Source: Methylococcaceae bacterium NSP1-1
GTDB lineage: Bacteria > Pseudomonadota > Gammaproteobacteria > Methylococcales > Methylomonadaceae
Reading direction: 5' to 3'
Length of the DNA stretch: 14,028 nucleotides
Assembly: GCA_002256465.1 (NCBI GenBank)
Contig: NQJG01000005.1
Span: 1 to 14,028 of the forward strand
Position numbers and translations under genes: made by a program. Position 1 is the first letter of the stretch, and every line of letters starts with the position of its first letter. The notes beneath the pieces were generated by a model. It searched no databases, was not told the DNA's origin, and saw only the letters and a list, made by a program, of their open reading frames with translations. Below, one piece after another: positions 6,212 to 9,633 of the stretch.

Positions 6212-6721
6212 GTGGCAAAAAATAAGCATATAACCGAGCCTGATGTCTTTGGTTATCAGGTGCGTATCGTAAGACGCGGTAAAGAGAGTAGCCGTTATTT
6301 CTCTCATAAATTGTGGGGCAACAAAAATAAATCTCTTCAGGCTGCAATAACCTGGCGAGATCAGATGCTGGTCGTTTTAAAAGGCAGTAAAACACGTTTT
6401 CTCAAACCACCCAAAAATAAAACCACCACCGGTGTCACGGGTGTATCCAGAACTATCAAATATGATCATCGTAAAGATAAAAATTATCTGTGCTATACGG
6501 TTTTTTGGGTCAGTAATGGCAAATCCAGAAATAAAACATTTCAAGTTGGCAATGTAGAAAAAGTTTCAGCTGATGATGAATTGCATGCGTTTCGTACAGC
6601 CAAGTTATTCAGAAGTTGCTATGAATTTTCAATTGATAACGACATTGAATTTCATGACGACAAATTTGCCGGCTGGAAGAAAACACGGCTTTATGATGTA
6701 GAGAACTTAAACGCAGTATAA
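6212..6721 (+). CDS. AP2-type DNA-binding domain protein, likely two AP2-like units
   Basis: 169 residues from a GTG start, with GAGGGGG at 6197-6203 as ribosome binding site. The clearest AP2-like unit is at about residues 74-139: GVTGVSRTIKY, a strand YLCYTVFWV, a turn SNGKSRNKTFQVG and a helix HAFRTAKLFRSCYEF. This is the three-strand-plus-helix plan of AP2 domains. Residues 14-53 show the same plan in degenerate form: GYQVRIVRRGKESSRYFS, then a helix KSLQAAITWRDQML. Bacterial AP2 domains are often fused to HNH endonucleases; no HNH motif is present here, so a stand-alone DNA-binding protein is more likely. It is basic overall. It converges on parB, and its role is unknown. The family call is from pattern only. 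Confidence 0.7.
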   Translation: MAKNKHITEPDVFGYQVRIVRRGKESSRYFSHKLWGNKNKSLQAAITWRDQMLVVLKGSKTRFLKPPKNKTTTGVTGVSRTIKYDHRKDKNYLCYTVFWVSNGKSRNKTFQVGNVEKVSADDELHAFRTAKLFRSCYEFSIDNDIEFHDDKFAGWKKTRLYDVENLNAV

Positions 6722-6748
6722 GCGACTTTGAATTTGAACTATACCGCT

Positions 6749-6760
6749 TTGAACGTTCAA
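6749..6760. repeat. 12-bp perfect palindrome between convergent genes
   Basis: TTGAACGTTCAA reads the same on both strands. It lies in the 105-base gap between the AP2-domain gene and parB, next to further TTTGAA words at 6727-6738. It could be a protein site or chance. Confidence 0.35.
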
Positions 6761-6813
6761 CTGATATAGAAAATAGTGCAGTGACTTGGGTAATTGGGTG
6801 TGAAATCTTCTTG

Positions 6814-6828
6814 GAAAACCGTGTTTTC
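6814..6828. terminator. Short hairpin at the parB stop, weak terminator candidate
   Basis: GAAAAC (6814-6819), a 3-base loop and GTTTTC (6823-6828) form a 6-bp stem that overlaps the parB stop codon. No T-run follows on the minus strand, so its role in ending the par transcript is doubtful. Confidence 0.25.
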
Positions 6829-7681
6829 ATTCATGCGTTCTAAGCTGCAGAATTATCCCATCCAATTCATCCAAGCTGGAATAGGCAATGACTAATTTCC
6901 CTGAGCCGTTTTCTTTATGGTCAATGATAACTTTTGCACCCAATTTCGCGGTTAAATCATCCTGTAAACGCAAGGTATCATTATCAATGACCTTGATTTT
7001 TTGAATTTTTGGCTCGGCGTGGCTTTCTTTAACCAATCGCTCCGTCGCTCTTACCGTTAAGCCTTCTTTAACTACTTTATTAGCTATCGCTACTTGTTTA
7101 AGTCCGTCTAATGACAAGAGTGCGCGTGCATGCCCCATTTCCAGTTGATTATTAAGCAATAATTTTTTTACATCCGGGTGCAAATCCATTAATCTTAATA
7201 AATTGGTAACCGTAGTACGAGACTTGCCAATAGCTTCGGCTATATGTTGATGAGTCATATCAAACTCGTCCAGCAAGCGCCTTAAAGCTTCGGCTTCTTC
7301 TAAAGGGTTAAGGTCTTCTCGTTGAATATTTTCAATCAACGCGATAGCCATTGCCGCGCGGTCATCTATTTCCTTAATGACTATGGGTACTTGCGCCAAG
7401 CCTGCCAACTGTGCGGCCCGCCAACGGCGTTCTCCAGCCACTATTTCATATTTTTCATGGGCAATTTGGCGCACCACTATAGGCTGTATGACACCCTGCG
7501 CCTTGATGGAATCCGCCAGTTCCTGTAATTTTTCCGGATTGATATCTTTGCGCGGTTGATATTTGCCCCGCTGCATACATTCGATTGGCAGTGTTTGCAG
7601 ATGATGTTTTTCCTCTTTAACAGAAACATCACCTAATAAGGCATCAAGACCACGACCTAATCCGCGTTTGTTTGAAGACAT
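6827..7681 (-). CDS. parB: ParB, chromosome partitioning protein (full length)
   Basis: 284 residues, usual for chromosomal ParB. ParB binds parS sites near the replication origin, loads as a CTP-dependent sliding clamp and stimulates ParA. In order: the N-terminal ParA-contacting peptide KRGLGRGLDALL (5-16); the CTP-binding ParB/Srx domain with QPIVVR (66-71), GERRWRAA (83-90) and ENIQRED (117-123); a helix-turn-helix around HQHIAEAIGKSRTTVTNLL (144-162) for parS; and a C-terminal dimerisation domain to residue 284. All key residues are intact. The start ATG lies in AAAGAGAAAAAATG, a weak ribosome binding context. It is preceded not by parA itself but by a relic of the parA 3' end and a truncated parB copy. 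Confidence 0.97.
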   Translation of the reverse strand: MSSNKRGLGRGLDALLGDVSVKEEKHHLQTLPIECMQRGKYQPRKDINPEKLQELADSIKAQGVIQPIVVRQIAHEKYEIVAGERRWRAAQLAGLAQVPIVIKEIDDRAAMAIALIENIQREDLNPLEEAEALRRLLDEFDMTHQHIAEAIGKSRTTVTNLLRLMDLHPDVKKLLLNNQLEMGHARALLSLDGLKQVAIANKVVKEGLTVRATERLVKESHAEPKIQKIKVIDNDTLRLQDDLTAKLGAKVIIDHKENGSGKLVIAYSSLDELDGIILQLRTHE

Positions 7682-7749
7682 TTTTTCTCTTTATTAATCA
7701 TCTCACCCGCCGGGACAATAGCACCAAAGCCCCGCGATGCTTTATTGTA
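7682..7749 (-). pseudogene. Relic of the parA 3' end just upstream of the full-length parB
   Basis: Read on the minus strand in the parA frame, this spacer gives YNKASRG, then GAIVPAGEMI, then NKEKK. ParA ends YDKSSRG, VAYMALAGEMI, RKDKI. About 13 of 23 aligned residues are identical, with one whole-codon gap. The last codons align exactly with the parA/parB-copy junction: where parA has its stop overlapping the ATG of the first parB copy, the relic has TGT overlapping the ATG of the full-length parB. Homology begins near base 7749; before that is about 45 bases of unrelated sequence. This is direct evidence that parA-tail plus parB was duplicated as a block. Confidence 0.8.
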
Positions 7750-7793
7750 GTAATATTTTGTTTATTGCCACTATCACACACAAGTTAGTGTGG

Positions 7794-8237
7794 TCAAAAA
7801 TGGCGAACCATAGCTTCAAACTCATCAATCAACTTTCTTAAAGCCTCGGCTTCTTGCAAGAGACTAAGATTTTCTTTTTGAATAGTTTCAAGTAACTCAA
7901 TCGCCATAGCCTCTTGATCATTCATCTCTTTGATGATCACAGGCACCTCTTGTAATCCTGCTAACCTGGCAGCACTCCAGCGGCTTTCGCCAGCAAGTAT
8001 CTCATAATTGCTTTCAGCAATTTTTCTCACAACGATGGGTTCGACTGTATCTGACGCTATTATGGAATAAGCTAATTCCTGTAATTCATCTGAACTCATA
8101 TCGTCTGGCGGTAGATGACTGCCACGCTGGAGAATATCAATCGGCAGGGTTTGCAGTTGATGTTTTTCCTCTATAGTAGAAACATTAACTAACAATGCTT
8201 CAAGACCCCTGCCCAGTCCACGTTTTTTTAAACTCAT
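7794..8237 (-). CDS. Truncated, diverged ParB paralog (N-terminal domain only)
   Basis: 147 residues that align without a gap to residues 1-140 of the neighbouring full-length ParB; I count about 86 identities (61%). Homology stops at LIDEFE and seven unrelated residues follow, so the helix-turn-helix and the dimerisation domain are missing. The ParA-contact peptide KRGLGRGLEALL is kept. The CTP-site motifs are changed: GERRWRAA is GESRWSAA, and ENIQRED is ETIQKEN. Its ATG overlaps the parA stop (ATGA), so it is translationally coupled to parA. Despite strong divergence the frame is intact, which suggests either selection or a fairly recent loss of function. It cannot bind parS by the usual domain. 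A ParA modulator or a decaying pseudogene are both possible. Confidence 0.8.
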   Translation of the reverse strand: MSLKKRGLGRGLEALLVNVSTIEEKHQLQTLPIDILQRGSHLPPDDMSSDELQELAYSIIASDTVEPIVVRKIAESNYEILAGESRWSAARLAGLQEVPVIIKEMNDQEAMAIELLETIQKENLSLLQEAEALRKLIDEFEAMVRHF

Positions 8238-9001
8238 ATCTTATCTTTTCTAATCATTTCACCCGCCAGGGCCATATATGCCACCGTACCACGTGAGGAT
8301 TTATCATAGCTTAGCACCGGCAAACCATGACTCGGAGCCTCTGCTAAGCGAATATTTCTAGGAATACAGGTTCTGAATACTTTATCGCCAAAATACCGGA
8401 TCAGTTGCTCAGAAACGTCTTTGGTCAGGCGGTTTCTATCGTCATACATCGTCCGTAAAATACCTTCCAGGTGTAAATCCGGATTAACTGAGTTTTGAAT
8501 ATTGTGAAGCGTGCTCATCAGTGCGGACAAACCTTCGAGAGCGTAGTATTCGCATTGCATCGGGATCAACAAACTATTTGCGGCCACCATCGCATTTAAA
8601 GTCAGCATATTTAAGGATGGCGGACAATCGATCAGAATGTAATCGTACTGTGATTTAATCGGAATCAACGCATCGGCAAGTCGCAGCTCTTTACGATCGG
8701 CATCTATTAATTTTACCTCAGCTGCAGTCAGGTCAGCATTTCCGGGAATCACTGAAAAGCCGATGTTTGGCAGATAAATAACTGTTTCTGCTGCAGGCAC
8801 ATCTTCCATTAACAAATCGTAACTGGAGTACTTGACTTCCTGTTTATCTATACCACAGCCCATTGCTGCATTGCCTTGTGCATCAAGATCCACCAACAAC
8901 ACACGACGCTTGGCGGCCGCCAAAGAAGCTGCCAAATTTACACTGGTTGTCGTTTTTCCTACGCCGCCTTTTTGATTGGTCACGGCAATTATTTTTCCCA
9001 C
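8234..9001 (-). CDS. parA: ParA, chromosome partitioning ATPase
   Basis: 255 residues with no N-terminal DNA-binding extension, the chromosomal Soj-like form. The deviant Walker A KGGVGKTT (11-18) carries the signature Lys11. DLDAQGN (38-44) is the A' motif and YILIDCPPS (121-129) the Walker B region. ParA-ATP dimers bind DNA non-specifically and are released by ParB, which segregates the origin. The start is a GTG sharing one base with the rsmG stop, with GAGGT at 9008-9012 inside the end of rsmG. The stop overlaps the start of the truncated parB copy. mnmG-rsmG-parA-parB is a widespread origin-proximal operon, and overlaps throughout imply one transcript. Confidence 0.97.
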   Translation of the reverse strand: MGKIIAVTNQKGGVGKTTTSVNLAASLAAAKRRVLLVDLDAQGNAAMGCGIDKQEVKYSSYDLLMEDVPAAETVIYLPNIGFSVIPGNADLTAAEVKLIDADRKELRLADALIPIKSQYDYILIDCPPSLNMLTLNAMVAANSLLIPMQCEYYALEGLSALMSTLHNIQNSVNPDLHLEGILRTMYDDRNRLTKDVSEQLIRYFGDKVFRTCIPRNIRLAEAPSHGLPVLSYDKSSRGTVAYMALAGEMIRKDKI

Positions 9002-9633
9002 TAACTTACCTCGGATTCATTAATCAATTGTACTTTAACCAGACATCTTTCTGCGGATATCCCTGGAACGTTGACAGGGATCAACTCCGTTTTTGCTGAT
9101 TCCAGCTTGGAGACATCAGGTATTTGCCCTTTCATAGCCAGCAGCACGCCATCCTTGTTAAGTAAATGTGCAGTCAATTCCACTATATCAGATAAACCGG
9201 CAAACGCTCTGGTAATGACAGTATCAAAACTTTTTTCAGGATGATATTGTTCCACACGATTATGACAGACACTTACATTTTTAAGCTTTAACTCTAAAAT
9301 TGCTTGTTGCACAAACCGTGTTTTCTTGGCATTACTATCCAATAAAACAAACTCTATTTCAGGCAAATAAATTGCCAGCGGAATGCCCGGCAAACCGGCT
9401 CCGGTGCCTATATCAATAACTCGCTTACCTTCGATAAAGGGCACAATAGCCAAACTGTCCAATACATGTAAGCGCACCATATCTTCCCTGTTGCGTATAG
9501 CGGTCAGATTATATGCTTTATTCCATTTTTCAATCAGCTTTATAAAGCCAAGCAATTGCTCTATTTTGTCTTCAGCCTGGGACAGATTCAGCGATTGAAG
9601 ACCGGAAACCAGAATTTTTCGACACGCTTCCAT
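9001..9633 (-). CDS. rsmG: RsmG (GidB), 16S rRNA (guanine-527-N7) methyltransferase
   Basis: 210 residues, normal length. The SAM-binding motif VIDIGTGAGLPGIPLAI lies at 72-88. KWNKAYNLTAI (36-46) and RLHVLDSLA (54-62) are family-typical, as are the ITRAFA segment (about 140) and AMKG near 166. It methylates N7 of G527 in 16S rRNA; loss gives low-level streptomycin resistance in several bacteria. The ATG shares one base with the mnmG stop and no clear ribosome binding site is seen, so translation probably depends on coupling. The TAG stop overlaps the parA GTG. Confidence 0.97.
   Translation of the reverse strand: MEACRKILVSGLQSLNLSQAEDKIEQLLGFIKLIEKWNKAYNLTAIRNREDMVRLHVLDSLAIVPFIEGKRVIDIGTGAGLPGIPLAIYLPEIEFVLLDSNAKKTRFVQQAILELKLKNVSVCHNRVEQYHPEKSFDTVITRAFAGLSDIVELTAHLLNKDGVLLAMKGQIPDVSKLESAKTELIPVNVPGISAERCLVKVQLINESEVS

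Follow-up and report, generated by a model that had tools for sequence, protein, structure and literature searches.

A small parB-derived gene between parA and parB in Methylomonadaceae: a candidate ParA effector

In several systems, among them PomX/PomY, McdB and the N-terminus of ParG, a ParA-family ATPase is stimulated by a short peptide belonging to a protein that is otherwise different; these proteins serve other cargo or bind DNA. The likeness of these ParA/MinD ATPase activators to the small protein described here would be a functional one. The parent of the small protein is chromosomal ParB/Spo0J (PF02195, PF17762, PF23552; 6t1f, 7bm8, 1vz0, 6sdk), which has the same ParA-binding motif. 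According to PMC12462528, the ParB1-20 peptide suffices to stimulate ParA with DNA, although closed clamps, in which two ParB tails are paired, are over ten times more effective. When the ParB clamp is closed, alpha3 is turned outwards and lies packed on alpha4′ of the partner subunit, and single changes at R60, R103, R104, N136, R139, G79 or S74 of Caulobacter ParB leave little or no CTP binding (both as given in PMC8367383). PadC of Myxococcus xanthus is described as another relative of ParB that has a ParA-binding motif and works away from parS (PMC12704722; PMC5703909); it binds CTP and bactofilins, whereas the small protein lacks several CTP residues and is encoded inside the parAB operon. 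The small protein Sci of SGI1 was considered as an analogue and rejected: its paper, in the part accessible, favours operon regulation via an unidentified factor and contains no tie to the ParB tail. No description of a small ParB-derived protein between parA and parB was found in the open-licence literature, and the words 'Methylo' and 'paralog' are absent from the main text of a 2025 survey of the ParB fold (PMC12704722).

The parA–parB interval of the window

The window analysed here is a whole contig of 14,028 bases from a draft genome of 1,668,253 bases (327 contigs, 77% complete). The host is probably a methane-oxidising bacterium, its kinship being read from named relatives. On the minus strand the window carries mnmG, which we take to be this gene by recognition from its sequence, rsmG, parA, a truncated parB, a spacer and a full parB. 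The features of the interval are as follows:

8234..9001, minus strand: parA, 255 amino acids; ORF with GTG start, Pfam AAA_31 and CbiA
7794..8237, minus strand: small gene in its long form, 147 codons, a truncated and diverged parB paralog; ORF, Pfam ParB_N 4e-27
8187..8237, minus strand: ParA-binding motif MSLKKRGLGRGLEALLV, codons 1–17 of the small gene; LGRGL in 68 of 68 long-form rows, dN/dS 0.08 (codons 2–20)
7875..8186, minus strand: variable middle with a degenerate CTPase core; several CTP-contact residues gone, and in many relatives lost or swapped for an unrelated linker
7797..7874, minus strand: C-terminal amphipathic helix, corresponding to ParB alpha4 extended by a short new end (ENLSLLQEAEALRKLIDEFEAMVRHF); counterpart in each of the 68 gene-carrying family loci (best ungapped match), dN/dS 0.22 (last 32 codons)
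7682..7752, minus strand: decayed copy of the parA 3′ end, from alignment to the parA end; carries the likely ribosome-binding region of parB, AAAGAG before AAAAAATG
6827..7681, minus strand: full-length parB, 284 amino acids; ORF with ParB_N, HTH and dimerisation domain (Pfam), ParA motif and intact CTP-pocket residues

The stop of parA and the start of the small gene overlap as ATGA, and the small protein is 59% identical to ParB. Like ParB/Spo0J it is encoded next to parA, and in its long form it shares the ParB_N homology. In contrast to ParB/Spo0J it lacks the HTH, the C-terminal dimerisation domain and several CTP-contact residues, and the core is unrecognisable in the short forms. No parS was found inside the window at up to two mismatches to a degenerate consensus, and promoter and terminator scans of positions 6700–9100 yielded about as much as shuffled sequences. 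An ORF of 169 amino acids (6212–6721, plus strand) lies convergent with parB; it has a weak AP2-domain match (22.1 bits, cut-off 33.3) and no match in PHROGs.

The two parB copies stand in register, 556 bases apart throughout, and the repeat runs on into the parA end before each of them: a repeat search paired 7499–7720 with 8055–8276 (222 bases, 74%). Alignment of the N-terminal parts of both copies without gaps gave 246 identical bases out of 360, so the repeat is real. A first-pass annotation of this DNA had read the spacer before the full parB as a copy of the ParA tail that meets the parB ATG in the same register, and both claims were borne out. Positions 7682–7749 match the parA end in this register at 38 of 68 bases, above all of 10,000 composition-keeping shuffles (maximum 31). 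A gapped alignment leaving out the last 12 bases before parB scored 5.7 SD above 200 composition-keeping shuffles, none of which reached it. At the first parB the true end of parA forms an ATGA overlap, and at the second the relic has ATGT. Read in the parA frame, the relic gives NKASRGFGAIVPAGEMINKEKK and its ParA counterpart DKSSRGTVAYMALAGEMIRKDKI; with 12 identities (counted by hand) and one codon missing, it is a recognisable rather than a near-exact copy of the ParA tail. The order of parA, truncated parB and full parB, which the annotation had suggested looking for in related genomes, is seen in relatives. An assembly artefact was rejected in view of this shared gene order and of a cluster of 99%-identical proteins of 147 amino acids (P0001, 15 members), whose longest member contig has 109,669 bases.

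Distribution, architecture and selection

We compared 96 parA–parB loci of the family. These are a chosen and uneven sample, and many of them were picked from matches sorted by their similarity to the small protein, so that the fraction found, an open small ORF between parA and parB in 68 of 96 loci, is not a prevalence. In the window's genus all 32 loci with parB have an open intervening ORF of 83 to 148 amino acids; 36 of the 64 loci from other genera of the family have one (70 to 160 amino acids as called, the shortest being 67 from the methionine nearest the motif) and 28 are without. Relatives were searched with ParB in 61 genomes including the window's own, 58 of which matched; the genomes of the window's genus without a ParB match (G006, G020, G033) are 65 to 79% complete, and two further loci from other genera, G063 and G093, were left out because the stretch taken had no parA or no parB match. 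In the outgroup, loci from other families of the order, parA and parB lie within 63 bases of each other in 10 of 11 cases, with a gap of 2,505 bases in G060. Holders with names include Methylobacter sp. KS41 and other Methylococcales MAGs, together with records entitled 'hypothetical protein [Methylobacter]'.

Two database searches returned 321 and 576 proteins matching the small protein at E ≤0.001; a few of the best 120 of each, which we inspected, are ordinary ParB. A class-wide search of 321 genomes gave no small form outside the family among the matches listed: all those listed from outside the window's family lie in open frames of at least 263 amino acids and are ordinary ParB. The small gene is dispensable, as it is missing from G105, G237 and G241 within a clade otherwise having it. 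At the G105 locus (L112, genus g22) the parA end (ATTAATAAAGAGAAA) resembles the relic type by eye, as if the small gene had been excised between two parA-tail repeats. Three of the five parB matches in genus g8 of family f6 (G041, G055, G058) contain one internal TAA.

The small ORF begins with the ParA-binding motif of ParB, typically KRGLGRGLEALL, and ends in a single helix, typically LLxEAExLxxLLDEFExxVR; the middle varies in length and letters among relatives. In the 68 family loci the motif reads RLGRGLE or RGLGRGLE in 65 and LGKGLE, LNRGLE or LGRGLD in the other 3. Of the 68 small genes, 60 have L at the first helix position and the other 8 have I, whereas ParB has P in 68, A in 15, S in 7 and V in 4 cases there (94 of 96 ParBs matched by pattern). 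The helix carries a hydrophobic stripe that is plain in composition, at 405 of 408 positions versus 115 of 680 elsewhere, the positions having been picked after viewing the alignment, but its hydrophobic moment exceeds 95% of its own shuffles in only 39 of 68 helices.

Neither HTH_ParB nor the C-terminal dimerisation domain ParB_C of Pfam matched the window small protein, 38 short forms or 10 further loci. A recognisable CTPase core is seen only in the window's genus, where Pfam ParB_N scores 71.1 bits in G001 and 64.4 bits in G012 (cut-off 26.3), falls just below with 25.1 in G024 and gives no match in the 125-amino-acid form of G034. Longer forms of other genera (L116, L117, L081, L083, L084, L073) had no ParB_N match either. 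P0094 (91 amino acids) is the window protein minus its core, in frame and with one residue altered at the junction, and P0113 is a close variant of it. In L081–L083 (genus g21) the linker contains repeats of about 16 residues, EVEQRREQLPTTAGKQ-like, and the repeat number varies between close genomes. The long form of the window passes the domain cut-off of NCBIfam parB_part (96.4 versus 58.45 bits), so that annotation places long forms in the ParB family. The short forms have no Pfam family of their own, with 3 stray single-member matches among 38; in NCBIfam at E ≤0.001, nucleoid_noc matched 10 of these 38, parB_part 5 and two other models one member each. The one member with a score given in this search reached 28.2, far below the cut-off of 315.

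The CTP pocket was compared in 68 long-form rows: the window, 5 loci and 62 of the best 120 database proteins out of 321, some of them near-identical. Of the Caulobacter ParB residues, R60 has its equivalent in none of these rows, R103 in 1, N136 in 5 and R139 in 7, and the Q58 equivalent is never Q, whereas each is kept in 95 or 96 of 96 family ParBs. All 68 rows keep LGRGL. The equivalents of E102, R104 and E135 are still present in 68, 52 and 62 rows, respectively; as these residues remain common and residue equivalence rests on our own alignment, the loss of CTP binding by the long-form protein stays a prediction.

In 24 close pairs, which are not independent because some genomes recur, pooled dN/dS of the small gene was 0.28 overall; codons 2–20 gave 0.08, the middle 0.39 and the last 32 codons 0.22, compared with 0.07 for ParB. 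Values above 1 occurred in 2 of the 24 pairs, both at very low dS (G034–G018, 1.22; G010–G013, 1.70). In the first of these pairs (L007, L009) the dS of the small gene is 0.06 and that of the neighbouring parB 0.35, in the second (L027, L028) 0.02 and 0.18; recent recombination or a constraint at the DNA level may account for the low values. Inside the ORF 18 of 23 indels have a length divisible by three, versus 5 of 26 in the downstream spacer, counted in pairs with a spacer of at least 30 bases (Fisher p 4.8e-5). The ORF thus behaves as protein-coding with constrained ends and the DNA directly downstream does not. At the codon level these data show purifying selection on the small gene, strongest at the motif and the helix.

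Origin and history of the small gene

The first-pass annotation had explained the two parB copies by a block duplication of the parA 3′ end together with parB, and this part of its interpretation is supported by the comparison with other genera, where the relic occurs at the same site. It stands plainly before parB in G094 and G107 (g22), G071 and G073 (g17) and G110 (g23), scoring 6.9 to 8.9 SD above shuffles with 0 of 200 reaching the score. Among the spacers of the 68 loci, 59 could be put to the relic test, the other 9 being missing or not long enough. Scores of at least 3 SD came from 20 of them, 11 lay between 1 and 3 and 28 below 1, and the relic is therefore visible in part of the clade only. 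Its position at the same place in several genera supports a block duplication older than their split. By eye, the relic resembles the parA–parB junction of genera without the small gene, such as G182, and a ribosome-binding-like AAAGAG stretch lies just before parB in most of 33 spacers. The spacers of L075 (G088) and L080 (G083) are enlarged to 225 and 227 bases, and the one of G088 contains short palindromic repeats, CCAAGCTCCAGCTTGG-like. The L or I shared by all 68 small genes at the first helix position and the similar end point point to a single origin of the small gene.

What did not hold is the picture of a private, uncommon event that left a truncated leftover behind. A private relic was rejected, as the gene is open in 68 of the 96 loci, across much of the family, and under purifying selection strongest at both of its ends. 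Furthermore, none of the 96 family loci has a second complete parB within the parA–parB interval, and the intermediate with two complete parB copies that the annotation had thought a sister might show is thus seen in 0 of 96.

On the ParA+ParB tree, in which many forks are weak, no fewer than 7 changes are required for presence versus absence of the small gene. Long versus short forms in the window's genus, with 11 loci counted as long, require at least 3. A core tree of 11 long forms separates G024 by a very long branch from the other ten, whose fork has a support of 81/0. A core tree of 8 chosen long forms, taken from 6 loci and from 2 database proteins with G001, G018, G024, G028 and G034 left out, unites them in one clade with 100/100. 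Neither a join of the long-form clade to the ParB of its own genus (AU p 0.14) nor one to the wider clade (AU p 0.09) was rejected. It is possible, though we consider it doubtful, that the ancestor of the genus had the short form and that the core was regained from parB by gene conversion instead of being kept. Such a course would fit a recognisable core confined to the window's genus, four unordered long/short changes are enough on the ParA+ParB tree, and the join to the genus's own ParB is not rejected (p 0.14); the stem of the long forms, however, has 0.5 changes per column, which is long for a recent copy, and long forms are spread over several lines of the genus, including the first-branching G031.

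Proposed role of the small protein

We propose the following course of events. In the ancestor of a large subclade of the family, Methylobacter-like and probably methanotrophic, the block of parA 3′ end and parB would have been duplicated. The second parA piece would then have decayed except for the stretch holding the translation start of parB, and the first parB copy would have lost its DNA-binding and dimerisation domains and become a separate small protein. Selection keeps mainly the gate helix alpha4 and the N-terminal peptide with which ParB binds ParA and stimulates its ATPase; the CTPase core between them lost several nucleotide-binding residues and was reduced or deleted repeatedly. 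Self-pairing of the helix could place two ParA-binding peptides side by side without CTP or parS. The small protein may then act as a diffusible ParA effector that tunes ParA-ATP turnover away from the partition complex, and, being encoded in one operon, it would be made in step with ParA and ParB.

The explanation we favour overall, and hold to be probable, is that a duplicated parB was stripped down to a small ParA effector that needs neither CTP nor parS. It builds on the duplication, the retention, the selection, the loss of CTP residues and the two-part architecture, all of which are shown at the level of sequence. Binding of ParA by the small protein, its self-pairing and its effect on the ATPase are what we infer from this pattern. 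The further idea that the ParABS system here has a fourth, operon-encoded part, a dedicated ParA activator made of ParB tail and gate helix that would partly free ParA turnover from the CTP/parS switch, seems to us evenly balanced. If true, a natural protein of tail and gate helix would show the effect of bypassing CTP/parS control, and it would offer a ready-made minimal ParA effector for experiments. The small gene is also an example of a duplicated segregation gene whittled down to a two-motif protein, with an in-frame deletion of the core still visible between the window protein and P0094.

The retention of exactly tail and alpha4 is best read as that of a ParA effector free of CTP and parS or, as the main rival, of a partner that docks on the ParB gate. 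According to this rival, which we regard as rather unlikely, the small protein would act mainly on ParB, its alpha3–alpha4 segment exchanging with the gate helices, and would cap or poison clamps or add ParA-binding tails to the partition complex. The packing of alpha3 on alpha4′ in closed clamps (PMC8367383) speaks for it; the retained helix has stayed similar to ParB alpha4, as would also suit a partner of ParB instead of a self-pairing protein, and an alpha3-like stretch is retained in many genera, as judged by eye. However, alpha3 has degenerated in a number of short-form groups, such as those of G023 and G005, and the ParA motif, not the helix, is the best conserved part.

The ParA effector reading also has to be set against an inert product, in which case the ORF would be a translated leader that couples the translation of parB to that of parA. 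The small gene often begins within the parA stop (ATGA), and its end overlaps the parB start in 5 of 5 g36 loci and in 3 of the 4 g37 loci with the gene. We consider this improbable all the same, as coupling leaves the protein-level constraint on motif and helix (0.08 and 0.22) unexplained, most of the 33 spacers keep AAAGAG before parB, and the ORF is missing from 28 of the 96 family loci. A decaying pseudogene is the least credible reading: although the HTH, the dimerisation domain and CTP residues were lost and the gene evolves faster than ParB, its frame is open in all 68 loci having it, across 13 genera, its indels mostly keep the frame, its ends are constrained, and the codon statistics speak against decay for the clade as a whole.
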